From: Comamonas avium
Lineage (GTDB): Bacteria; Pseudomonadota; Gammaproteobacteria; Burkholderiales; Burkholderiaceae_C
Assembly (NCBI RefSeq): GCF_014836675.1
Contig: NZ_JACSQK010000009.1
Location: 1-64,000 of the forward strand
Reading direction: 5' to 3'
Length of the DNA: 64,000 nucleotides
The notes under the pieces: generated by a model
What the model was told of the DNA's origin: nothing
Databases searched by the model: none
The model's input: only the letters and a program-made list of their open reading frames with translations
Program-made: the position numbers and the translations under genes
In this document: one piece after another, positions 2,887 through 64,000 of the stretch
How positions within the stretch are numbered: the stretch's first letter is position 1
Layout: every line of letters begins with the position of its first letter

Positions 2887-3801
2887 ATGGATCGCTTCAG
2901 CGCTTTGCAACTTTTCACTCGCATTGTGTAGCTGGGCAGCTTTACTCAGGCAGCCAGCGCTTTGAATATTCCACGCGCAACGGCAACGCATGCCATCAAA
3001 GAATTAGAAAAAAAGCTGGGTGCGCGCTTGCTGGATCGCACCACGCGGCAGGTCAAGCCTACTTTGGATGGGCAATCTTTCTACGAACGCAGCAAGCAGA
3101 TACTGCTTGATCTGGAAGACGCACAAGCGTCTCTGAGTACGCATATCAAAAACCCCCATGGAACCCTGCGGCTGGATTTGCACGGAGCGCATGCCACGCT
3201 GATCATCTTGCCGCGCATTGGCCAGTTCAGGGCTCTGTATCCACAGATTGACGTGGTCATCAGCAGTGGCGACCGCCTGGTCGATCTGGTCAAGGAGGGT
3301 ATCGATTGCGTCGTACGCGCAGGCCATCCGCAAGACTCTTCGCTGGTTGCTCGCAAGCTGGCCGACATGCAGGAAATCATCTGTGCCAGCCCTGAATATC
3401 TGGCGCGACATGGCATGCCTGTACATCCCCGTGAACTGCAGGCACACCAGGGTGTTGGATTTTTCTCCAGAGGCAGCAGCAGTCGCTACCCTTTCACGGT
3501 CATTGTGGATGGGCAGGTCGCCGAATTTGAAGCGAGCGGCTGGCTCTCAGTCAACGATGCAGAGTGCTACACCAGTGCAGCACTTGCCGGTTGTGGACTG
3601 ATACAGGCCCCCCGCTTTCGCCTGCAAGAGCACCTGCAAGCCGGGCGTCTGGTGCAAGTGCTTGACAAATGGATGTGTCCTGCGCGTCCGGTTTTTGCGC
3701 TGTATCCATTTCACCATCAGCTTTCACCCAGAGTGCGGGTGTTTATCGATTGGGCCTGTGGTGTGTATGAAGACAAGTTCACTCCAGCGCAGGCTGGCTA
3801 A
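2887..3801 (+). pseudogene. LysR-family transcriptional regulator interrupted by a stop at codon 15
   Basis: From ATG at 2887 the translation is MDRFSALQLFTRIV, then TAG (2929-2931), then LGSFTQAASALNIPRAT in the same frame. LysR regulators normally have Glu at the stop position, so a single GAG-to-TAG change explains it. The rest is intact: the HTH remainder (NIPRATATHAIKELEKKLGA), the linker helix, and a substrate-binding domain to residue 305. The only in-frame restart is TTG at 2962, which would lose the first helix of the winged HTH and probably DNA binding. I call it a nonsense pseudogene, or less likely a suppressed or miscalled base. It would have controlled the divergent SDR gene at 1808-2563; the 323 bp between them must hold both promoters. 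Confidence 0.85.
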
Positions 3802-4018
3802 TGTCACCTGAAGCATTGAAATGTGGTTCCGAACGCCGGGGGCTTGTCTGAGGGGGTGCTGCGCGCCATGTGCGTGCATTCTTTCGCTGGCTCGGGTGCT
3901 GCTGCTTCCAAGGCCTTGTGCCTTCAGGCGCACTCGCGATATGTGCCAGTTTGCAAGTCCTGCCCATCTGCAGCGAAGGCCTCCAAAAGCGGCTGATATG
4001 GGCGTTCGGGAGATGGGC

Positions 4019-4273
4019 TCAGCACAAGGCAACGTTGTCGGCATCCAGTGACGGCGGGCGTAAAAGATCTTCGTTCACCCCCATCTCCAGGCTGGCGCGC
4101 TCGACAGCTTGCCAAAGTGTCGCTGGCATTTGCAGTATCTCTTCAGGGGACTCAGCACTGGCAATCCAGGCACTGATTTCACGGTGCTGTTCATGGGTCA
4201 GCAAGTCAAGATTCAGCATTTCGTCGATTGTTTTCATTGTTTGGCGATGGGTGATTTTTAGACGGACACTCAT
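4019..4273 (-). CDS. Small conserved-looking hypothetical protein
   Basis: 84 residues, or 72 if the internal Met at 4237 (MKTIDEML) is the start. It is acidic and helical, with no signal peptide or membrane segment. Segments such as LDLLTHEQHREISAWI and LWQAVERASLEMGVNEDLL look like an amphipathic helical bundle with normal codon use, which is why I keep it as a real gene. No Shine-Dalgarno sequence is clear in front of either start. I do not recognise the family. The flanking stretches 3802-4018 and 4274-4526 show no other supported gene. Confidence 0.5.
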   Translation of the reverse strand: MSVRLKITHRQTMKTIDEMLNLDLLTHEQHREISAWIASAESPEEILQMPATLWQAVERASLEMGVNEDLLRPPSLDADNVALC

Positions 4274-4526
4274 CCAAGATGGTGCCAGATGCTGTCAAAA
4301 CTAGAGCCGCGTGCTTGCCAATTACCAATTTAAGGCCGGGAATGCGAAGTATTGCCTCAACGGCCTTACCTGCCTCACAGGGCGCTTGGCACGACTGAAC
4401 TCCAATGGCCGCAATGTCGTGCACATGGCCAAGAGTGTTTTTGCAGCGCCAGTCTGGCAGTGGGGATGCGCGGCACGGTCTCTGTGCACCAGATGTCTGG
4501 CATCTGACTCTTATAATCAGCGCCTA

Positions 4527-4722
4527 CGAACGGGAGTCCTGCCGCGCAAACGCACGGCGGGGTGAAACGGGAAGTCCGGTGACCTCAAGGCTTTGGCCTT
4601 GAACATTCCGGCGCAGCCCCCGCTGCTGTAAGCCTGACAGACACACTTGAATGCCACTGGATGACATATCCGGGAAGGCGGTGTGCCCTGAATGACGGCG
4701 AGCCAGAATACCGACCTGTTCG
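4527..4722 (+). promoter_or_regulatory. Cobalamin (B12, AdoCbl-type) riboswitch
   Basis: This leader lies 130 bases upstream of cobO. CGAAC at 4527 pairs with GTTCG at 4718 to close the element (P1). Inside are the conserved core blocks: ACGGGAAGTCCGGTGA, then CCGGCGCAGCCCCCGCTGCTGTAA, then GCCACTGGATGACATATCCGGGAAGGC, and the 3' block GAGCCAGAATACCGACCTG. These match the order and wording of the B12-box riboswitch family. It should repress the downstream cobO-btu-cobWN operon when adenosylcobalamin is plentiful, presumably by sequestering the ribosome site or terminating in the 4723-4855 segment. Confidence 0.95.
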
Positions 4723-4855
4723 AACGCAGTTGTATGCCACGGGGTGTGGGCCGTTTGCTGACAGGCCCAGTCTCACCTCATTGTGTGGCCCAGGCCCGCC
4801 GCACACATCTCCTCCTCCTTGCATGCCTTTCATCGTGTAATGGCTCGGGGAGAGC

Positions 4856-5482
4856 ATGGACGAACAGTTCAAACAGCTGCATGCCGGGCGCATGCAGGAA
4901 AAAAAGGCACAGGTTCTGGCCGCAGTAGAGCGTGCCCAGACAGAGCGCGGCATCGTTGTGCTTCTCACAGGCCATGGCAAAGGCAAGACGACTTCTGCAT
5001 TCGGCATGCTGTACCGCGCACTGGGTCACGGGCTGCGTGCGGGTGTGGTGCAGTTCATCAAAGGCACGCACGCTACGGGTGAAATCACGTTCTTGCACCA
5101 CCTTGGTCTGCTCGGCCAAGGGCCAGCGTCTCAGGTGCAATACCACGCCATGGCAACAGGTTGCACCTGGCAGCGCAGCGACTGGGATGCCGACAAGCCC
5201 GCAGCCGATATAGCGTGGCAGGCAGCGCAACGCATGCTCTGTGATGACAGCCTGCGTCTGGTGGTGCTCGATGAATTGACTTTCATGCTGCAGTACGGCT
5301 ATCTGCAGATGGAGTACGTACTGCAAGCCATCAGAAACCGGCCCCAAGGGCAGACGGTGGTGATAACAGGTCGCTCTGCGCACGCGCAGCTGATAGCGCT
5401 GGCAGACACCGTCAGTGACATTGCAGAGACCAAGCATGCATTCAAAGCCGGGGTCAAGGCACAAGCGGGCGTAGATTTCTGA
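4856..5482 (+). CDS. cobO: Cob(I)yrinic acid a,c-diamide adenosyltransferase (CobO/BtuR/CobA type)
   Basis: This enzyme transfers the 5'-deoxyadenosyl group from ATP to the cob(I)alt of corrinoids, in de novo synthesis and in salvage. The 208-residue length is usual for the CobA/CobO family. Residues 35-50 hold the characteristic P-loop TGHGKGKTTSAFGMLYRA. Further on are FIKGTHATGE, the WQRSDWDAD segment, LVVLDELTFML (the Walker-B-like acidic cluster) and VVITGRSAH near the end. ATG 4856 follows a GGGGAGA ribosome site. It is the first gene after the cobalamin riboswitch, and its stop overlaps the next start (TGATG), so the two are translationally coupled. Confidence 0.95.
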   Translation: MDEQFKQLHAGRMQEKKAQVLAAVERAQTERGIVVLLTGHGKGKTTSAFGMLYRALGHGLRAGVVQFIKGTHATGEITFLHHLGLLGQGPASQVQYHAMATGCTWQRSDWDADKPAADIAWQAAQRMLCDDSLRLVVLDELTFMLQYGYLQMEYVLQAIRNRPQGQTVVITGRSAHAQLIALADTVSDIAETKHAFKAGVKAQAGVDF

Positions 5483-6360: not shown

Positions 6361-7397
6361 ATGCAATCCCCGTGCGAGCTGGGCTGTCAAATTTCTCGAA
6401 TGCCTGGGTTTTGAATGGTGCTCTATTGGCAGTGCTGCTGATGCTCAGCTGTATCTCGCTGGGCATCGGCTCGGTGTCCATCGGCGTCACCGACTGGTGG
6501 TCTGTGATCCTGCAGCAGCAGGCCACTGATTTGGCGCTGCGGCACCAGTCAATCATGCAGGAAATCCGCCTGCCCAGGGTCGTGCTGGCAGTGCTGGTGG
6601 GCATGTCGCTGGGCATGGCCGGGGCAGCTTTGCAAGGGCTGCTGCGCAACCCGCTGGCCGAACCGGGTCTGCTGGGTGTCAGCTCCAGCGCTGGTTTGGG
6701 CGCCGTGCTGTGCATCTATTTTGGGCTGTGGCACTGGAACCCCTGGCTGCTGCCTACCGTGGCTATGGGCTGTGCAGCAGCGGCAACCACGGTGCTCTAC
6801 CGTATTGCCAGCAAAGGCGCGAGCAACCTCACCTTGATTTTGGCGGGTGTCGCCATGTCGTCGCTGGCTGCTGCCTTGACATCTCTGGCGATCAATCTGG
6901 CACCCACGCCCACCGACATGCAAGACATCGTGCTATGGCTGATGGGGTCTTTGGCAGACCGCAGTTTTGATGAGGTGCGCCTGTGTCTGCCGTTTATCGC
7001 ACTGGGCCTGCTGATACTGGCCTTCAGTGGCCGCCAGCTCGATGCGCTGACGCTGGGTGAAGACGAAGCCGCCAGCATGGGCGTGAATTTGCCGCGACTG
7101 CGTGCACAAATCATTGCTGGTACAGCTTTGTGCGTGGGGGCCAGCGTGGCAGTCACCGGCTCCATAGGCTTTATCGGGCTGGTGGTGCCGCACCTGTTTC
7201 GCGGTCTTGTCGGGTATCGACCTTCACGGCTGATGCTGCCCAGCGCTCTGGGTGGCGCAGTGCTGTTACTCAGCGCTGATATTGCGCTGCGACTGCTCAG
7301 TGGCCGGGTAGAGCTGATGCTGGGCGTAGTCACAGCCTTGATTGGTGCCCCGTTCTTCTTTTATCTGGTGGTGCGTGAGCGCTGGAGGAGCCGCTGA
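6357..7397 (+). CDS. btuC: FecCD-family ABC permease, corrinoid import (BtuC-like)
   Basis: 346 residues, the standard length for BtuC/FecD permeases. There are about ten hydrophobic segments. The signature RLPRVVLAVLVGMSLGMAGA is followed by LQGLLRNPLAEPGLLGVSSSAGLGA, the best conserved stretch of the family. GFIGLVVPHLFRGLVG near residue 270 is the cytoplasmic coupling loop that contacts the ATPase. The protein forms the inner-membrane homodimeric channel. ATG 6357 overlaps the btuF stop by 4 bases, and the gene's own stop overlaps the next start (TGATG). Confidence 0.93.
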   Translation: MNAIPVRAGLSNFSNAWVLNGALLAVLLMLSCISLGIGSVSIGVTDWWSVILQQQATDLALRHQSIMQEIRLPRVVLAVLVGMSLGMAGAALQGLLRNPLAEPGLLGVSSSAGLGAVLCIYFGLWHWNPWLLPTVAMGCAAAATTVLYRIASKGASNLTLILAGVAMSSLAAALTSLAINLAPTPTDMQDIVLWLMGSLADRSFDEVRLCLPFIALGLLILAFSGRQLDALTLGEDEAASMGVNLPRLRAQIIAGTALCVGASVAVTGSIGFIGLVVPHLFRGLVGYRPSRLMLPSALGGAVLLLSADIALRLLSGRVELMLGVVTALIGAPFFFYLVVRERWRSR

Positions 7398-8185
7398 TGC
7401 GCACACTGGCCATTGAATCGCTGCAGGTTGACTGGGCTGGCAAGACCTGTGTGAAGGATTTGTCCTTTGAGGTGCAGTCCGGTGAGCTTTTCGCATTGAT
7501 AGGCCCCAATGGGGCCGGAAAAAGCACGGTGCTGCGTGCTATCGCGCAATTGCTGCCACACCAGGGCCGGGTGCTGCTGGATGGTCAGGACCTGGGGCGT
7601 CTTGCACCGGGCCAGCGGGCCAAACGGCTGGCTTATCTGTCTCAGGGTGACCAGGTAGCCTGGCCTTTGCAGGTGCGTGACTTTGTGGCGTTGGGGCGTT
7701 TGCCGCACCAAAGCCGGTTTGGCATCCGCTCAGCCTCAAGCGCCGATGAACAGGCCATTGATACAGCGCTGAGCGCGATGCACCTGCAAGCTTTTCAGCA
7801 CCGCCATCTCAATGAACTTTCAGGTGGTGAACGTGCCCGTGCCCGTCTGGCCCGCGCCATGGCTGTGCAGGCGCCGTTGCTGCTGGCCGATGAGCCCGTG
7901 GCTGCACTTGACCCCTACCACCAGCTCAGCGTGATGGAGCTGCTGCGCTCTCAGTGCAACGCCGGTCAGGCTGTTGTGGTGGTGCTGCACGACCTGACGC
8001 TGGCCAGCCGTTTCTGCGATCGGGTTTTACTGCTGCAAAGCGGCTCTGCCGTGGCCTGTGGTGCACCGCGCCATGTGCTCACGCCAGCAAATTTGCAGCA
8101 CGTCTATCAGGTACAGGCCATGCACGGCGAGCACGAGAGCCAGGGCTACGTTGTGCCGTGGCGCTGCCGGCCGGTCACTCAATGA
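7397..8185 (+). CDS. btuD: ABC transporter ATP-binding protein, corrinoid import (BtuD-like)
   Basis: 262 residues. Walker A GPNGAGKST is at residues 35-43, the Q-loop is near LSQGDQVAWPL, the ABC signature is LSGGERARARLARAMA, Walker B is LLLADEPVAALDP, and the switch His is in VVVVLHDLTLASRFCD. It powers the BtuC channel. It belongs to the FecE/BtuD/HmuV subfamily and is assigned to corrinoid transport by its overlapping position in the riboswitch-controlled operon. A 64-bp gap separates it from cobW, the only real spacing in the operon until the ChlD-like gene. Confidence 0.93.
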   Translation: MRTLAIESLQVDWAGKTCVKDLSFEVQSGELFALIGPNGAGKSTVLRAIAQLLPHQGRVLLDGQDLGRLAPGQRAKRLAYLSQGDQVAWPLQVRDFVALGRLPHQSRFGIRSASSADEQAIDTALSAMHLQAFQHRHLNELSGGERARARLARAMAVQAPLLLADEPVAALDPYHQLSVMELLRSQCNAGQAVVVVLHDLTLASRFCDRVLLLQSGSAVACGAPRHVLTPANLQHVYQVQAMHGEHESQGYVVPWRCRPVTQ

Positions 8186-8249
8186 AAACCTTTCCCGCGT
8201 GCGCTGCAAGCAAGCCACATTCTTTTGAACGAACAACAGGACACTCCAT

Positions 8250-9326
8250 ATGACAAGCAACCACAAAATCCCTGCAACCATCGTGACGGGTTTTCTGGGC
8301 AGTGGAAAAACGACGCTGTTGCGCCACATTCTGAACAACGCCAATGGCCGCCGTATCGCCGTAATCGTCAACGAGTTCGGCGAACTGGGTATTGATGGCG
8401 ACATCCTGCGCGGCTGTGGCATTGGCTGCGAGGATGAGCAGGGCGAGCAAAGCGGACAGCTGTATGAACTGGCCAACGGCTGCCTGTGCTGCACAGTGCA
8501 AGAAGAGTTCTATCCCGTGATGCGTGAGCTGATTGCGCGCCGTGGCGATATCGACCATATCCTGATCGAAACCAGCGGCCTGGCGCTGCCCAAACCTCTG
8601 GTTCAGGCCTTTAACTGGCCTGAAATCAAGAACGCCTGCACGGTAGATGCGGTGATCACCGTGGTCGATGTGCCCGCTACTGCTGCAGGCCAGTTCGCAG
8701 CCAATCCGGCAGCTGTGGATGCCCAGCGCAGGCAAGATCCAAATTTGGACCACGAGTCGCCCCTGCATGAGCTGTTTGAAGATCAGCTCATGTCCGCTGA
8801 CCTGGTGGTACTCACCAAGCTCGACCAGTCCAGCAGCGAAGATCGGGCCACAGTGGAGGCCATCGTGCGCCAGGAAGTGCCTGCACAGGTGAAGATTGTG
8901 GCTGCCGATCATGGCCAGATCGATCTGGCTGTGGTGCTTGGCCTGTTCAGCGCATCGGAAGAAAGCATTGATGAACGCCACAGCCACCATGGGCACGAAG
9001 AAGGTCAGGCGCACGACCACCACGACCATGACGAGTTCGACTCAATCGTCGTCAAGCTGCCTGAAATGGAGCGCGAAGCTTTGCTGGAAAAGCTGCAGGC
9101 CATTGTCTCCGAGCAAACCGTCTACCGCGTCAAAGGCTTTGTTGCCGTACCCGGCAAGCCTATGCGTCTGGTCGTACACGGCGTGGGCAAGCGTTTTGAC
9201 AGCTACTTTGACCGCCGCTGGACAGACACCGAAACGCGGCAGACCTATCTGGTGTTCATTGGCCACGATCTAGATGAAGCCGCTATTCATGCCCAGCTGG
9301 CCACCCTGACCGCTGGAGCGCACTGA
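8250..9326 (+). CDS. cobW: CobW-family metal-chaperone GTPase
   Basis: 358-residue G3E GTPase. Walker A is TGFLGSGKTTLL at residues 12-23. The CxCC metal motif occurs in NGCLCCTVQEEF, and the switch region is VNEFGELGIDGD. The guanine-specificity motif is TKLD. A histidine-rich linker (HSHHGHEEGQAHDHHDHD, about residues 247-264) precedes the C-terminal CobW_C domain. CobW proteins are thought to deliver Co2+ to the CobN chelatase. The gene directly precedes cobN, which it overlaps by one base. A good ribosome site is not evident, but ATG 8250 gives the standard N-terminus. Confidence 0.95.
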   Translation: MTSNHKIPATIVTGFLGSGKTTLLRHILNNANGRRIAVIVNEFGELGIDGDILRGCGIGCEDEQGEQSGQLYELANGCLCCTVQEEFYPVMRELIARRGDIDHILIETSGLALPKPLVQAFNWPEIKNACTVDAVITVVDVPATAAGQFAANPAAVDAQRRQDPNLDHESPLHELFEDQLMSADLVVLTKLDQSSSEDRATVEAIVRQEVPAQVKIVAADHGQIDLAVVLGLFSASEESIDERHSHHGHEEGQAHDHHDHDEFDSIVVKLPEMEREALLEKLQAIVSEQTVYRVKGFVAVPGKPMRLVVHGVGKRFDSYFDRRWTDTETRQTYLVFIGHDLDEAAIHAQLATLTAGAH

Positions 9327-54387: not shown

Positions 54388-56550
54388 TTATTGCCCTTTG
54401 TCCCGTGGCGGAGAAGCAGGCAGATCTCGCTCATCCATGGTGAAAAAGTCTATTTCTTCATCAATCGATGAAGAGTCAGTGGCAGGCGTTGGGGGAGCCT
54501 CAGTTTTTGAGGTGTCCCAATCCAAGGAGAGATCATCCACCAGCACTTCGCTGGGCGCAAAATGCGCCGGGCTCTGGAAGGGGGAGTCGTTTTGCAGGCT
54601 GGATGCGGGCAGCGGGGCATGCATTGGCGTTGCAGTCAGCATGTCCAGGTGCGCCTCGTGCAGGGGCAGCGGCGCGCTTGCCAGCGTTGCTGTGGGCCCA
54701 GGGCTGTTCGAAGATTGCATGGCTGGCGCTGGGGGGCTGTCAAAGGCAAGTTCTGGCAATGGAACTTCCAGCGGCGTCATGCGAACACGCCCCGGCAGTT
54801 GACCCCGGCTTGACGCAGGCGTTGTCTGCGCCACGTTGTAAAGCATGAGCAAATCATCAAACGCAGCAAGGTCGAAGCGAGTATTGGTTTCTGTATGGTT
54901 TGGAGCTGGGCGGCGAACAATCAGGTCGCGCATCAAACCTTGCACTTCATCGGTGGGCCACAAGGCTTCAATCTGGCCGAGAACTTCGGGGTAAGCGCTG
55001 AGATCTCGTCCTTTGCGCGAAAAGCCCAAGAAGTTAGGCACCTGGACATTGAAGTGTGCTTCGAATTTTTCGCGTACCTCTTCAAAAGCCTCTGTGCGGC
55101 TGAGGCGGTAGAGCAATTGCAGCAGCTCTATGTAAGCCAGGGGGGCTGAGGCCGCATGTTCGGCAATGTGTGCTTGCAGTATCTGAATGGCCTGGTCGTT
55201 TTCTCCGATCGAGGCGTAAAACTCAGCCTGTTCTTGAACATCAAACAATGCCTGTGCTGTCAGAACTTCGGCGATGGAGGGTAACGGTGGTGCTTGCTCG
55301 GCGGCAGGAGGGGGCGAAGCGGGTTGCTCAAACGCGGCATAAAAATCTGCCTCTTCAAGGTCTGGCAGTGCTGGTGCAGGCTGCGTATCTGTGCCAGAAG
55401 TGCGAGTGTCTGCGGGGCCGGCTTCTACGGCAGAAAAGGCACTTGCCGCTGGGGTGCTCTGGCGCTCGGCCTCGTGCAATGCCGGTACGGACGCGGTAGG
55501 GCGTGTGTCAACGGAGGCAGCGTGCAAGGAGTCTTCGACCGCCAATACGGTGTTGGCCCAACTGCTTTGTGCCGTTTGACGCTCTTTTTTAATGCGTTGC
55601 AGTAACCACGCGATGGTGGCAAGCGCAAGTGCCAGCAGCCCCAGCAGGATATGGACCCACAAGGGTAGATCCGGGTTTTGCGCCTGGACTAGCTGGCTTT
55701 GCAGGTTGGCAGTTGCTGCACGGTTGCTGGTCAGTTGCGATTGCATGGAGAGCAGCTGCTTTTCCAGTGCTTCTAGGCGTGTTTGGTTGGCATCCAGAAT
55801 GGCCTGCGTTTGCGTGTCGATCTCTGCGCTGGTGAAAGACTGCGCTTCACCCTGGTTCGGTGGCGTGCTTTCTGGCGGAGTGTCCAATCCGTCCAGTGGC
55901 TCAATGCGCAGGCGTGATTTTTCTGCGCTTGCAGGCGCGGCAGCGGGCTCTTGGGTACTTTCTTTGGGAGCCACTGGCTCGGCAATCACTGTTTGAGCAG
56001 CGGCAGCGGCAGCTGGGGCCAATGGCTGCGCCAGAGCTGCTGTGGGATTGACGGCTTTTTTTGCTACACGAGGTGCTTTGTTTGCTGCCGCTGTGTTTTT
56101 GACCGCAGCAGGGCGTAGAGCTGTAACTGCAGTTGCCGCTGGAGGGCTGGCTTGAATGGTGCTCAGGTCAATAGGCTCGACAGAGGCTGCTAGAGATTTT
56201 GGGGGATCTGCAAAGAAGGTGTAGCTGCGAGAAACTGCGTTCACGCAGCCGGCGCGCAGTTTCAGCGTGATCAAAGGTTCGTACACCGGTGCGGTGGAGC
56301 GTACACGCACAGACTTGTCTTGGGCGGTCACCAAGACTTGACTACCGGTCAATGCCGCATTTCCCATCCAGATTTCGGCAGTGATGCAACTGCTGTCGGC
56401 AGTTTGCCCGGCATCTGGTTGAATCGGAAACACCAAGTCAATCGGTGAGCCAAGCTGCACTTGCCCTTGTGTATTACCTAAAGACAGGGCGCTCACATGC
56501 GATGCGGCAGCGACGCTGCCAGCGAGGATGAGAAAGTCGCGAATTTTCAC
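54388..56550 (-). CDS. FimV-like polar scaffold protein
   Basis: 720 residues, likely start GTG 56550 (KIRDFLILAGSVAAASHVSA signal peptide); a GTG at 56589 would add 13. The N-terminal region LSLGNTQGQVQLGSPIDLVF is the FimV/LysM-adjacent signature. After it come an Ala/Pro-rich stretch, a coiled coil (ILDANQTRLEALEKQLLSMQ), one TM helix (LWVHILLGLLALALATIAWL), and a long acidic, low-complexity cytoplasmic part with a TPR-like block (EQAEFYASIGENDQAIQILQ). FimV organises type IV pili and cell-pole functions. Terminator follows. Confidence 0.85.
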   Translation of the reverse strand: MKIRDFLILAGSVAAASHVSALSLGNTQGQVQLGSPIDLVFPIQPDAGQTADSSCITAEIWMGNAALTGSQVLVTAQDKSVRVRSTAPVYEPLITLKLRAGCVNAVSRSYTFFADPPKSLAASVEPIDLSTIQASPPAATAVTALRPAAVKNTAAANKAPRVAKKAVNPTAALAQPLAPAAAAAAQTVIAEPVAPKESTQEPAAAPASAEKSRLRIEPLDGLDTPPESTPPNQGEAQSFTSAEIDTQTQAILDANQTRLEALEKQLLSMQSQLTSNRAATANLQSQLVQAQNPDLPLWVHILLGLLALALATIAWLLQRIKKERQTAQSSWANTVLAVEDSLHAASVDTRPTASVPALHEAERQSTPAASAFSAVEAGPADTRTSGTDTQPAPALPDLEEADFYAAFEQPASPPPAAEQAPPLPSIAEVLTAQALFDVQEQAEFYASIGENDQAIQILQAHIAEHAASAPLAYIELLQLLYRLSRTEAFEEVREKFEAHFNVQVPNFLGFSRKGRDLSAYPEVLGQIEALWPTDEVQGLMRDLIVRRPAPNHTETNTRFDLAAFDDLLMLYNVAQTTPASSRGQLPGRVRMTPLEVPLPELAFDSPPAPAMQSSNSPGPTATLASAPLPLHEAHLDMLTATPMHAPLPASSLQNDSPFQSPAHFAPSEVLVDDLSLDWDTSKTEAPPTPATDSSSIDEEIDFFTMDERDLPASPPRDKGQ

Positions 56551-56779
56551 AATAATTTCTTTACTGCCAAAGTGTTTGGGCCAAGGCACTGTTTAGCTCA
56601 AATAGTTCTGGTTCAACTGTGGGTGAACCTTTTTCACACTGGGGAGAATGTGCCGAATTGTCAGACTTGTGTCTTTGTTTTCTTGCAAGCACATGGCAAA
56701 AAACATGTCTGTTGTCGTAGAGGGACTAAATGTCAACCATTCATAACCACGCAAGTCGGTATATGGAGTGCATGGAAAT

Positions 56780-60352: not shown

Positions 60353-60375
60353 GCACTGGGTGTGTACAAAACGAA

Positions 60376-60400
60376 AAAGGCAGCAGTTGCTGCCTTTTTT
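60376..60400. terminator. Terminator between tex and the convergent Sel1-like gene
   Basis: AAAGGCAGCA-GT-TGCTGCCTTTTTT; the A-rich left arm and T-rich right arm allow function in both directions. Confidence 0.85.
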
Positions 60401-60441: not shown

Positions 60442-61545
60442 CTACTTGCGCCAGCGTGCGTCAATGTAGTCGTACAGCGGCGTGGGATCACGCTGCAAGC
60501 TGGTGGGGGCGCTGGGTGAATGAATCGGCGTATTGCTGTTTTTACTGACGTCGGCATAGGCTAATTGCTGCATCCAGGCAGTATCCAGACTGCCATCTGC
60601 TAGCGGACGCGAGTAGATCAGGGCCAGCATGCGCCTGGCTTGGATGTTGCCCATGTCTGAGGCGCGTTTGTAGAGCCTTATTGCTTCTGTGTAATTGGCC
60701 GGTACGCCTTCTCCCCGGTGATAGATGCGCGCTTGGCGAAAGGTTTGCCAGGCGCTGCCAGCCTGGCCGATATTGCCACTGGCATGCATGCGCTGGCTGC
60801 TCTGCTCTGCCATGACCTGCATATTGCGGCGTGCAGCTTCAGAGGTGGCTGAGGCCGCGCGAAACTGTGCAAGCGCTTGGCTGGTCTGGTTTTCTGCGGC
60901 CAGCTCCAGACCCCATTCCACGCGCGCATGGGGGTCATTGGCTTTCACTGCACGTTGCAGGGCCTGCTGTTTGCGTTGCTGCATGGCGTTGTTGACTTGC
61001 GGGGAGGTCGATGCCACATCTGCATCCATCGGGGCTACGTCCTCCAGAAGCAGCCAGTCAAGGTATGCAGCGCGGCCTGGGTCCTGCTGGCGCAGCTCCT
61101 GCAGCCACCTTGGAGCTTTACTGGGCTGGGGGCGCTGACCACAGCCATCAATAGCACACCAGGCCAGGCCTGCACTCGCCAGCGGATGACCGAGTGCATG
61201 GGCACGCTCGAACATGATGTTTGCCTGCGCAGGATCCAGCGGCACATGCAATCCATGCAGCTGTAGCAGACCGAGCTGCCAGATCGCTTGTGCCTGCTGT
61301 TTTCGGGCCTGGGCAGTGCGCGGGGCAGGTGCATTGGCAAGGCTTTGCAGCTCTGCCAGGGCTGGAGACACTGCAGGGGTGCTGGCATCCATGCCGGCAC
61401 TTGGCTTTTGCAACTGCTCAGAGTCAATGCGCGGTGGTGTTTGCGCTTCTTGCACGCTAATGACTGCACGTGGCTGGGCACTTGCTGCGCCCATTGCTAT
61501 GCCAGCCAGCAAAGCGACCACTGTACGTATATAGGGGTGGCTCAT
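60442..61545 (-). CDS. Sel1-like repeat (SLR/TPR) secreted protein
   Basis: 367 residues from MSHPYIRTVVALLAGIAMGA, with a signal peptide cleaved near ASAQ. Helical repeats include ANIMFERAHALGHPLASAGL (the AxxxGxxxAxxxLAxxY type Sel1 pattern), RVEWGLELAAENQTSQALAQ and YTEAIRLYKRASDMGNIQAR. It ends in DPTPLYDYIDARWRK. Likely a periplasmic protein-protein interaction module. It lies 10 bases after the CsgG-like lipoprotein gene, so it is probably in the same operon. Confidence 0.8.
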   Translation of the reverse strand: MSHPYIRTVVALLAGIAMGAASAQPRAVISVQEAQTPPRIDSEQLQKPSAGMDASTPAVSPALAELQSLANAPAPRTAQARKQQAQAIWQLGLLQLHGLHVPLDPAQANIMFERAHALGHPLASAGLAWCAIDGCGQRPQPSKAPRWLQELRQQDPGRAAYLDWLLLEDVAPMDADVASTSPQVNNAMQQRKQQALQRAVKANDPHARVEWGLELAAENQTSQALAQFRAASATSEAARRNMQVMAEQSSQRMHASGNIGQAGSAWQTFRQARIYHRGEGVPANYTEAIRLYKRASDMGNIQARRMLALIYSRPLADGSLDTAWMQQLAYADVSKNSNTPIHSPSAPTSLQRDPTPLYDYIDARWRK

Positions 61546-61555
61546 GATGGTGCTC

Positions 61556-63199
61556 TTATTGCGGGGCAGCTGCGGAAGCTTTGGGTGCTGTGACCTGCCA
61601 CTTGAGGCTGCTTTGACCAACGAGGCTGTCACCACCCGCTGCCTGGCGCAGCTGCACTCCAATGTCTTCCAGAGAGGAGGCCCCCTGCAATGGGCGAAAT
61701 GCTGGTTGCTGCAAGCTGGCAGGCAGCTTGCCTGTCAGGTCATTGGCACTGGCAAAACAGGCTACCCGCTCTTGCCCTGGTATGCCGGCATCAAGCACAA
61801 AACCTGGTGTAGGACTCATCCAGTCCGGGATGCGAATGGCCTGATTGGCGGCAATCCAGCCAGAGCTATTGGTTGCGTTGGGTAACAGGCGGATAACCTG
61901 TTTTTCAGCGTTCTCCATGTAGCAGTACAGGTAGGAGGTGCGTGAGACGGTCGCTGACAAGAAGATTTGCTCACCTGGAAGAAAGTGCTCACGCCCGACC
62001 ATCAGATTTTCTATCTGCATATCAATGTGCGCAGGCTGCCCTTGCTGGCTGGTGTCTGCGGCCATGCTGATGCCAGCGTTATTGACCCAGCCAACGCGCT
62101 GCAAATGACCTTGGGGTGTCAGGCTGACAAAGTTGCGCATGGCCCGTTCGTAGGTCGGGAAATCTAAAACCCCTGTCACCACGAGACGTTCATCTGCCTG
62201 GAATTGGGTCAGAGCCTGGCGCAGTGCGCTGTCATCGGGGGTTTCAGTCTCCAGGTAGCCACGGCGAACCAGCGAGCGACGCACGAGCAGGCTGCGGTTG
62301 GCAGGCCCTGCATCTTCAAACCATTCACGCATCTGTCGAATAAATTCAGGGTGGGTTTGCTCAAGAGTCAGGCATTGCCAATAGGGCACCCGGGCCCACT
62401 TGCCCAAAAGCTCAATCATGGCCAGCTCTACCAATGTACGGATGGCGGGGCCTGAGCCCTGCGCGTAATCCCTGCCGACGTTGAACTGCACACCGTAATT
62501 GCCAATACGCCCTGATAAATCCAGCCCCTGACCTCCGCTGCCAATCACAATTTCGTTGGCTGAATCCAGGCCGGGAATAAAGGTACGGCTGCGAAAGTCA
62601 CCCAGGTGCATTTCAAGGCCAATCACCGTCGAGCGCTTGTTTTGGCTGTACCCCGTCTCCAGGCGCGAGGCAGAGGTGCCTACCTCGACGTTGTTGCTGA
62701 TCACTTGCTGGTCAACGAAAGCCACCGCCCCAGAAACATAGAGTGCAGGTCGCTGCAAGCGAATTTGGTTGTTGTTGAGCAAAAGGGTGGTGAGGTTTTG
62801 TACGGTATCTTGCTGGGCGATATTCACTTCGTAATCCACGAAGCGAAAAGCATTGCTCACGCGAGACATTTGCGACAGGGCCGTCACAATCATTTCTTTG
62901 GTTGCTACCGCAATGCGGCCTGAATAGTCAGGAATGGATTTGCTGGTAATCAGCACCGTTCCCATGCCGCTTTCTCTAAACAGGTGATCCATGCACATCA
63001 AGGAGTCTGAGAAACTGCTCAGCGACCTTGTCGGGCGTACTGCGGGGCGGTTGATTTCAGGTGCGCGCGCATGATAGGGCGCATCTTTGGCGGGACTCAT
63101 CGGTGCACAGCCTGCGAGCAGGCCCACAGCGCTTAGCAAAGCGATCGCGGCTTGCCAGCGGGGATGGCTCGTCAAAGAGAAAGTAGGTAGGTAGGGCAT
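61556..63199 (-). CDS. CsgG-like lipoprotein with PG-binding and DUF4384 domains
   Basis: 547 residues from MPYLPTFSLTSHPRWQAAIA. Lipobox LLAGC near residue 29. The CsgG-like region (about 60-300) contains SLSSFSDSLMCMDHLF, FRFVDYEVNIAQQDTVQN and ALYVSGAVAFVDQQVISNN, ending with IRTLVELAMIELLGKW, as in the curli secretin family. It is followed by a peptidoglycan-binding module (DDSALRQALTQFQADERLVV) and then a DUF4384 domain (REHFLPGEQIFLSATVSRTS, IRIPDWMSPTPGFVLDAG). It probably sits in the outer membrane as a channel or assembly factor. The downstream Sel1 gene and the upstream secreted-protein genes may be its partners. Confidence 0.8.
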   Translation of the reverse strand: MPYLPTFSLTSHPRWQAAIALLSAVGLLAGCAPMSPAKDAPYHARAPEINRPAVRPTRSLSSFSDSLMCMDHLFRESGMGTVLITSKSIPDYSGRIAVATKEMIVTALSQMSRVSNAFRFVDYEVNIAQQDTVQNLTTLLLNNNQIRLQRPALYVSGAVAFVDQQVISNNVEVGTSASRLETGYSQNKRSTVIGLEMHLGDFRSRTFIPGLDSANEIVIGSGGQGLDLSGRIGNYGVQFNVGRDYAQGSGPAIRTLVELAMIELLGKWARVPYWQCLTLEQTHPEFIRQMREWFEDAGPANRSLLVRRSLVRRGYLETETPDDSALRQALTQFQADERLVVTGVLDFPTYERAMRNFVSLTPQGHLQRVGWVNNAGISMAADTSQQGQPAHIDMQIENLMVGREHFLPGEQIFLSATVSRTSYLYCYMENAEKQVIRLLPNATNSSGWIAANQAIRIPDWMSPTPGFVLDAGIPGQERVACFASANDLTGKLPASLQQPAFRPLQGASSLEDIGVQLRQAAGGDSLVGQSSLKWQVTAPKASAAAPQ

Positions 63200-63242
63200 G
63201 GTGGCTCTCAGGGGTTGTGGGGCTTTACTGAAAACCTGCTTT

Positions 63243-63644
63243 TCAACGGCAAATATTGACCAGATCCCCGCGCAACACCACGATCTGATCTCTGCCGCCA
63301 ACGCCAGAGGGGGGCGCTACATTACTGCCAACATCCTGGATGCAGGTTTTACGATTGGCTTGGGTCTCGACCATGCGGTTCACGTCACCGTCGGTATAAA
63401 TTCCATCTTTCTGGTCACTGAACGTCTTCGCTTCATACCGGACAATCTTGGCCTTCAAGCTGGTGGGAATGCCATCGCCTTCCTGATCCAGACCTTTGGA
63501 TACGCCAGGGCCGCCAATCGGCAACTGAAGGTGTTCAACCGGATTTTTAAGCTGAATGGTGTCTTCGCCTGGCGCAGACCAGGAGGCAGGGGCCATCAAG
63601 CTAAGGCCAGCTGCCAAGATCCAACGGGTGATCTGGATACGCAT
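63243..63644 (-). CDS. Small secreted hypothetical protein
   Basis: 133 residues, clear signal peptide (WILAAGLSLMAPASWSAP, cleavage near Ala-24). The mature part is acidic and has two Cys (NRKTCIQDVG, VNICR) at the end. It sits between the CsgG-like gene and the repeat protein in the same direction; the 44-base gap suggests one operon. No family recognised. Could be the chaperone, nucleator or minor subunit of a surface fibre, which is inference from position only. Confidence 0.7.
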   Translation of the reverse strand: MRIQITRWILAAGLSLMAPASWSAPGEDTIQLKNPVEHLQLPIGGPGVSKGLDQEGDGIPTSLKAKIVRYEAKTFSDQKDGIYTDGDVNRMVETQANRKTCIQDVGSNVAPPSGVGGRDQIVVLRGDLVNICR

Positions 63645-63731
63645 GATGCTCTCCTGTGTGCCAGCAATGACACGAAGATGCTGGTGTCAGCGTCTTCGTG
63701 TTCAAGGGGGGGCTTGTGAAGGCCGCACTAT

Positions 63732-64000
63732 TTACTGGCAAGTTACGCAAGCGTTGTTTGTGGAGATGTTCTGCACAGCGGATGACTGGTCAGAGGCATA
63801 GTTGCGCACGGATGTGTTCTTGAGCAGAACCACCTGGGTCAAAGCCTGCTTGACGTCAACATTGCCAACGTTGCTGGCCAGGTTCTGCGAAGCGTAGGCC
63901 TGATCTTCAGCGTAGTTGCTGATGTACGCGCCTTTGCCCACTGTGGCCTGCGTAAGAGCTGCACCGACTTTCACCCCTGCAGTGTTGGAGGAGATGTTCT
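63732..64000 (-). CDS. Repeat-rich secreted protein (partial, 5' end outside the window)
   Basis: Open on the minus strand to the window edge; ends at 63732. Two copies of a roughly 45-residue repeat are visible: ALTQATVGKGAYISNYAEDQ with AYASQNLASNVGNVDVK, and ALTQVVLLKNTSVRNYASDQ with SSAVQNISTN, then the C-terminus NACVTCQ. Alternating polar and small residues, conserved Asn, Gln and Ala (xNYAxDQxxAxQNxxxN), look like a beta-helix or amyloid-type subunit. It ends in a CxxC motif. Likely the major exported subunit of the system encoded with the CsgG-like lipoprotein. Confidence 0.65.
   Translation of the reverse strand, partial: NISSNTAGVKVGAALTQATVGKGAYISNYAEDQAYASQNLASNVGNVDVKQALTQVVLLKNTSVRNYASDQSSAVQNISTNNACVTCQ

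Follow-up and report, generated by a model that had tools for sequence, protein, structure and literature searches.

The window, by which we mean the whole stretch analysed, comprises bases 1-64000 of the 154,839-base Comamonas avium contig NZ_JACSQK010000009.1, and its last part holds, on the minus strand, four collinear genes that look like one operon, running from past the window edge down to 60442. In operon order, the genes encode a repeat protein, a small secreted protein, a CsgG-like lipoprotein and a Sel1 protein. A first-pass annotation of this DNA had pointed to the same four collinear genes, had taken them for a possible curli-like fibre export cluster and had expected the cluster to continue outside the window. 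It turned out that all four are present, and the whole repeat gene was recovered with the sequence beyond the edge, which was taken from the genome. Secretion signals were called throughout by a home-made signal-peptide heuristic. The lipoprotein gene is called the channel gene below for brevity, and the features are as follows.

63732..64000, minus strand: C-terminal 88 amino acids of the repeat protein, with the stop at 63732; the whole gene is equivalent to 64214-63732 and encodes 160 amino acids.
63669..63701, minus strand: stem-loop in the transcript, directly 3' of the repeat gene, with a fold z of -3.24 for the window.
63243..63644, minus strand: small secreted protein of 133 amino acids with two cysteines, directly upstream of the channel gene (open reading frame (ORF), secretion-signal heuristic, distant homologues by profile and C-terminal pattern).
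61556..63199, minus strand: CsgG-like lipoprotein of 547 amino acids, lipobox LAGC, Cys31 (Pfam, profile comparison, model, tree).
62336..63025, minus strand: predicted CsgG-fold domain, residues 59-288 of the lipoprotein (profile comparison, Foldseek, VIA-align).
62147..62281, minus strand: PG_binding_1 domain, residues 307-351 of the lipoprotein (Pfam).
61745..61984, minus strand: DUF4384 domain, residues 406-485 of the lipoprotein (Pfam).
60442..61545, minus strand: Sel1-repeat protein of 367 amino acids with a signal-peptide-like start (ORF, heuristic, and Pfam Sel1 with 45.9 bits at a cut-off of 30.7).
60374..60399, no strand assigned: terminator-like stem of 11 pairs with a T-run, where the Sel1 gene and tex converge (stem search; such stems are not enriched in the region, with 5 sites and a shuffle mean of 5.0).

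The start used for the lipoprotein is the ATG at 63199, and a longer ORF with a TTG start runs from 63301. Past the window, and divergent from the repeat gene, lie genes for a REC-LuxR response regulator, a histidine kinase (HisKA_3, HATPase) and an HDOD protein (L002 4497-6991). The full order of kinase, regulator, divergent repeat gene, small protein, channel and Sel1 was found in 18 of 21 named loci, and the other three end at contig ends. These loci come from Comamonas, Delftia, Acidovorax, Polaromonas, Diaphorobacter, Corticibacter and other genera. One record that carries the locus (L034) is titled Pantoea sp. 18069; its genome (G039) is placed in the window's genus, and the title is probably a misnomer. 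The channel is present in 28 of the 100 genomes around the window's own, 24 of them among the 53 genomes of the genus (own genome counted). The window shares 84% identity with its nearest relative in the channel, 54% in the repeat protein and 93% in Tex, and the lower value of the repeat protein would fit a surface-exposed subunit.

The lipoprotein had been described as CsgG-like with extra peptidoglycan-binding (PG-binding) and DUF4384 domains, and the description holds, on different grounds for its parts. The two extra domains are called by Pfam (PG_binding_1, 25.3 bits at a cut-off of 23; DUF4384, 49.3 bits at a cut-off of 27), while the CsgG call comes from profile-profile comparison and modelling, not from Pfam, NCBIfam or PDB sequence searches. 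A channel profile of 43 relatives (residues 28-290) was compared with profiles of HfaB (7 sequences) and CsgG (14 sequences). The closest match was HfaB (probability 97.4, E-value 1.1e-11), CsgG was matched with probability 89.6 (E-value 1.9e-6), and the controls, five column shuffles and the reversed profile, gave probabilities of at most 1.4. Besides, two distant relatives of the lipoprotein weakly match the Pfam CsgG model (E-values 0.044 and 0.083), under its cut-off. An AlphaFold2 model from 36 sequences had a mean predicted local distance difference test score (pLDDT) of 75.8, falling below 50 at residues 169-187 and 223-246. With this model, CsgG chains occupied rows 1-21, 23 and 25 of the Foldseek result (best E-value 1.3e-7), and VIA-align matched the CsgG-CsgF complex with Z 16.1 (193 residues, 4.4 Å, model residues 59-288), the next folds after CsgG being FlgT (Z 11.0) and PelC (Z 10.8). 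By these comparisons, the N-terminal domain almost certainly adopts the CsgG fold. Elsewhere in the own genome, on contig C13 (L054 4165-5755), a CsgG-model match adjoins a GNA1162-like lipoprotein gene; this region is unrelated to the cluster, contains no repeat ORF and was used as a control.

In a FastTree tree of up to 202 columns, 60 relatives, 14 CsgG and 7 HfaB sequences were split with supports of 0.996, 0.992 and 0.974; judged by sequence, the channel is a separate clade apart from both CsgG and HfaB. According to an excerpt of PMC7304575, a loop with Tyr66, Asn70 and Phe71 makes up the three rings of the ~12 Å constriction in E. coli CsgG. This loop is gapped in the alignment for 42 of 43 relatives, for none of the 14 CsgG sequences and for none of the 7 HfaB sequences, in which it is only shortened. 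The segments aligned to the two membrane hairpins of CsgG have about the CsgG length in the relatives. The constriction loop is missing, and therefore the pore, if the lipoprotein is a channel, would be constricted by something else; going by the alignment, it is chiefly through the loss of this loop that the mechanism would depart from that of curli.

The same fold and the same missing loop could also belong to a non-secretory envelope ring, periplasmic or in the outer membrane, with the repeat protein as a structural partner inside the envelope. FlgT and PelC are rings of this kind and share the fold, and a periplasmic place is suggested by the PG-binding and DUF4384 domains. The CsgG pores, however, stand five Z units above FlgT and PelC with an aligned span of residues 59-288, and repeat subunits, at times in tandem and some with the curlin motif, recur beside the channel gene, as described below, which makes a ring of this kind quite improbable in our judgement.

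The repeat protein starts with a signal-peptide-like segment, continues with a linker rich in Pro and Thr and with three repeats of 38 residues, and has a CxxC at its C-terminus. Its best internal period is 38, with a score of 142 against a maximum of 48 over 200 shuffles, and the motif xNYAxDQxxAxQNxxxN is directly visible in the second and third repeats. Across 37 distinct relatives, a motif pattern occurs 2 to 5 times per protein, with spacings that are mostly 38-40 residues. A signal-peptide-like start, on which the proposal of the first-pass annotation depended, is found by the heuristic in the window protein and in 17 of 17 aligned relatives. A structure prediction of the repeat had also been suggested there, and the AlphaFold2 model (17 sequences) is a beta-solenoid with four strands per repeat and block pLDDT of 84-95 over residues 41-150; several positions taken by Asn, Gln or Ala are invariant and in register across the repeats. 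C-terminal cysteine pairs are carried by repeat subunits of otherwise different sequence (window 63732-63750, L094, L095), and are possible cross-links or end caps.

As had been remarked at the outset, the repeat differs from that of CsgA. The comparison with the CsgA profile gave a probability of 14 with 3 for the reversed control, no detectable relation; the curlin core QxGxxN is absent from the window protein and has a single match in 2 of 37 relatives, and the Pfam curlin model did not match the repeat protein. The comparison with CsgF gave a probability of 32 over 32 columns (reversed 0.2), and no homologue was found among PDB sequences with the repeat profile (best E-value 0.11). For the repeat model, the top Foldseek match was the FapC fibril (E-value 4.2e-3, probability 0.30, template modelling score 0.14), the CsgA fibril came fifth (E-value 0.25) and none reached an E-value of 0.001, while VIA-align gave Z 4.2 for FapC (102 residues, 3.3 Å) and Z 2.8 for CsgA. 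The matches to FapC and CsgA are weak, and any solenoid could give them.

Seven genomes of the genus contain a second version of the cluster, in which the subunit has 99 amino acids and two repeats. The three loci of this version that were inspected in full (L058, L059, L061) also encode a longer secreted protein that is weakly repetitive. L058 has a secreted pentapeptide-repeat protein as well, and there these two proteins flank the cluster (4304-4939 and 8742-9173). The window's repeat family looks lineage-bound, because the repeat-unit profile found this second version but none of the other distant subunits, and because the repeat profile returned only the own genome across 274 class-level genomes.

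The channel profile reaches further. In the order it matches 17 of 349 genomes, which belong to 13 of 147 genera, and in the class 7 of 369 genomes, own genome included in each. From the channel matches, 26 loci were picked by hand, 7 from the window's family and 19 from outside it; some matches, e.g. G984, were left out, the second genus version is represented by two of four fetched loci, and the loci are not all independent, L124/L132 and L094/L095 being same-genus pairs. In 16 of the 26 loci (12 of 19 outside the family and 4 of 7 within), internally repetitive secreted proteins are encoded close to the channel gene, and as a control, none of 70 signal-peptide ORFs elsewhere passed the repeat test. 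The number 16 includes decisions by hand. By the rule (preset spacing of 34-41, channel-gene strand only), 14 of 26 loci passed; the match in L125, a DUF2807-like channel neighbour, and both matches in L055, of which one is a Sel1 protein and the other an ORF lying antisense to the true repeat gene, were then dropped, leaving 12, and L055 (opposite strand) together with L125, L126 and L128 (spacing ~31, outside the preset range) were added. Rule-passing Sel1 ORFs in L094 and L095 and the pentapeptide protein in L058 were not counted as subunits. A subunit candidate in L097 was rejected as not repetitive, 20 of 200 shuffles being as good. Several loci contain two or three tandem subunit copies (L094, L095, L098, L122).

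In five loci (L124, L125, L126, L128, L132), QxGxxN occurs 4 to 12 times in the secreted proteins, mostly at intervals of 30-35 residues, and all six ORFs with at least three QxGxxN, out of 2209, lie in these loci. The minimal curli repeat is given as X6QXGX2NX10 with the core QxGxxN in an excerpt of PMC3521004. The Pfam curlin model misses all five of these proteins that were tested, and profile comparison of their units with CsgA and CsgB found no homology past the motif. In L126, two QxGxxN proteins flank the channel gene, at 6954-8498 (12 copies) and 3514-4149 (6 copies). The accessory proteins differ among the loci, including Sel1, OmpA, DUF2807 and pentapeptide proteins. A shorter CsgG-like relative, in which the match stops short of DUF4384, occurs in L129, L130, L131 and L057, the last with an adjoining DUF2807 protein, and is perhaps a sister system. 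What recurs as the core is the pair of small protein and channel, and the set of secreted repeat proteins changes.

For the small protein, three distant versions were homologous by profile-profile comparison (probability 94.4, E-value 9.4e-8, reversed 0.08), while its profile alone reaches distant members weakly (E-values 0.03-0.1, best reversed control 0.26). A C-terminal pattern, drawn up after several members had been inspected, is found in one ORF in each of 15 of the 26 loci, 15 of 2209 ORFs overall. No relation to CsgE (probability 0.10), CsgF or CsgC was detectable with profiles, the genomes not being searched for CsgE, and the comparison with an HfaA profile of two sequences gave a probability of 0.18.

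These results bear on whether the cluster is ordinary curli, that is, a csgBA-csgEFG orthologue with an unusual subunit. The CsgG homology and the QxGxxN repeats of some relatives speak for it. However, the CsgF and curlin-repeat models matched in none of the 53 genus genomes with a positive E. coli control, the small protein is unlike CsgE, CsgF and CsgC by profile, and the 60-member channel clade lies apart from CsgG with a support of 0.996. Canonical curli was rejected on these grounds, and we consider it very improbable. The curli-type system first proposed is thus kept in part: a CsgG-fold lipoprotein, a secreted repeat protein with a solenoid model and conserved linkage stand, as do the small secreted protein before the channel gene and the LuxR-type regulator nearby as further likenesses, but the channel has its own clade and lost the loop, and CsgF and curlin repeats were not found in the genus genomes. 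The extra PG-binding and DUF4384 domains, and the repeat period of 38-40 without QxGxxN, are also different from curli.

The HfaABD holdfast anchor of Caulobacter is the other system to be considered, as HfaB is the closest profile match (97.4 vs 89.6 for CsgG) and both are small operons of a channel and secreted proteins. Its differences are the separate clade, the shortened loop kept by HfaB and the accessory domains. The excerpted text of PMC6707917 states that HfaA and HfaD need HfaB for surface localisation. By analogy, both secreted proteins, repeat and small, would be placed by the channel on the outer membrane, and a compact complex without long fibres would tether exopolysaccharide, as HfaB does for HfaA/HfaD; some subunits, short and with two repeats only, agree with this. 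On the other hand, the repeat showed no likeness to HfaA by profile (probability 0.22, with only two HfaA sequences compared), the NCBIfam HfaB model NF037935 gave the lipoprotein 13.7 bits at a cut-off of 300, the subunits of distant relatives have many repeats, and no polysaccharide genes are among the listed neighbours, though no search was aimed at them. We think such an anchor unlikely.

A likeness to Fap concerns the subunit. FapC is exported through FapF and is not known to use a CsgG-type channel, unlike what is proposed for the cluster. The window protein and FapC share conserved Asn/Gln and three repeats, each of which makes one solenoid layer (in the model, for the window protein), and FapC is the best, weak, structural match; PMC12392863 describes FapC as a solenoid in which every layer is a single repeat and conserved Asn/Gln hold the structure, the plan that the window's model also has. 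PADLOC reported nothing, and literature searches of open-licence PMC papers brought up no account of the cluster.

The reading that we moderately favour is a dedicated CsgG-superfamily export module for fibre-like subunits, curli-like but not curli. The small protein and channel pair recurs with varying secreted repeat proteins, which is best accounted for by an exporter that has its own adaptor and handles fibre-like subunits. What follows on pore, substrate-channel pairing, fibre, regulation and the part played by the small protein is inferred. The CsgG-fold domain would form an oligomeric outer-membrane channel that the PG-binding domain tethers to the cell wall, and DUF4384 and the Sel1 protein would provide a periplasmic scaffold. 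The repeat protein would enter the periplasm by Sec and leave through the channel, of which it is probably the substrate. Successive repeats would form the layers of a beta-solenoid, their Asn/Gln in register like those of curlin and FapC, and the joining of subunits would give a surface fibre or matrix; judged from the sequences, a polymer on the surface is rather likely, and there is about an even chance that it is of amyloid type. The small two-cysteine protein might be a channel adaptor, gate or nucleator, and the divergent LuxR-type two-component pair would control the operon. The stem-loop 3' of the repeat gene, with negative z in 12 of 12 loci folded, z below -2 in 7 of 12 and unrelated stem sequences, would allow an excess of subunit over channel.

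Several results weigh against the export module. The Pfam CsgG model did not match the lipoprotein at an E-value of at most 1, and neither the PDB sequence search nor the NCBIfam search made a CsgG call for it. The lipoprotein fails the signal-peptide heuristic, with no K/R in the first ten residues from the ATG, and its lipobox is clear. Since the CsgG-constricting loop is missing, the pore may work otherwise or not exist. No repeat protein was found on the channel-gene strand in 10 of 26 loci (L121, L123, L127, L113, L129, L130, L056, L057, L096, L097), of which L113, L096 and L127 are contigs under 7 kb and L129, L130 and L057 are of the shorter type without DUF4384. Comparison of the window repeat unit with the QxGxxN units of distant relatives found nothing beyond the motif, and the repeat has no detectable relation to CsgA. 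Besides, the FapC match of the repeat model is not only weak in Foldseek but also tied in VIA-align with an L. reuteri streptococcal-type adhesin domain (Z 3.8).

Our best reading of the sequences is that the cluster does not qualify as either curli or Hfa by the features compared, yet would work like one of them. More tentatively, and with slightly less than even confidence, the CsgG superfamily may have a third export branch next to curli and Hfa, to which this cluster would belong. Such a branch would have a pore without the curli constriction and sequence-unrelated solenoid subunits (31-40-residue period) that vary by lineage, some bearing the curlin motif and others resembling FapC, so that a curli exporter and Fap-like subunits would be united, and gating would have moved to the small protein or to the wall-bound periplasmic domains.

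Two further observations concern the surroundings. Beyond the window, at the equivalent of 67129-69618 (L002 7129-9618), there is an AI-2E-family transporter with a C-terminal GAF fusion. Within the window, near tex, the product of 54388-56589 is a large protein that matches FimV_N weakly, under the cut-off.

Few routes are known by which fibre subunits are exported across the outer membrane, and a CsgG-type channel without the ~12 Å constriction loop would test how the pore is gated and whether subunits need to pass unfolded. CsgG is widely used as a sequencing nanopore, and natural variants with another constriction would be of practical interest for nanopores. As far as the excerpts of the sources go, a recent survey of curli and Fap was screened with curlin and Fap repeat models and csg and fap gene models (PMC12822426), and a paper on curli structure starts from curlin repeat signatures (PMC10192328). 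Such survey models would probably miss this cluster, and because curlin, Csg and Fap models are probably blind to it, functional amyloids may be undercounted in Burkholderiales.

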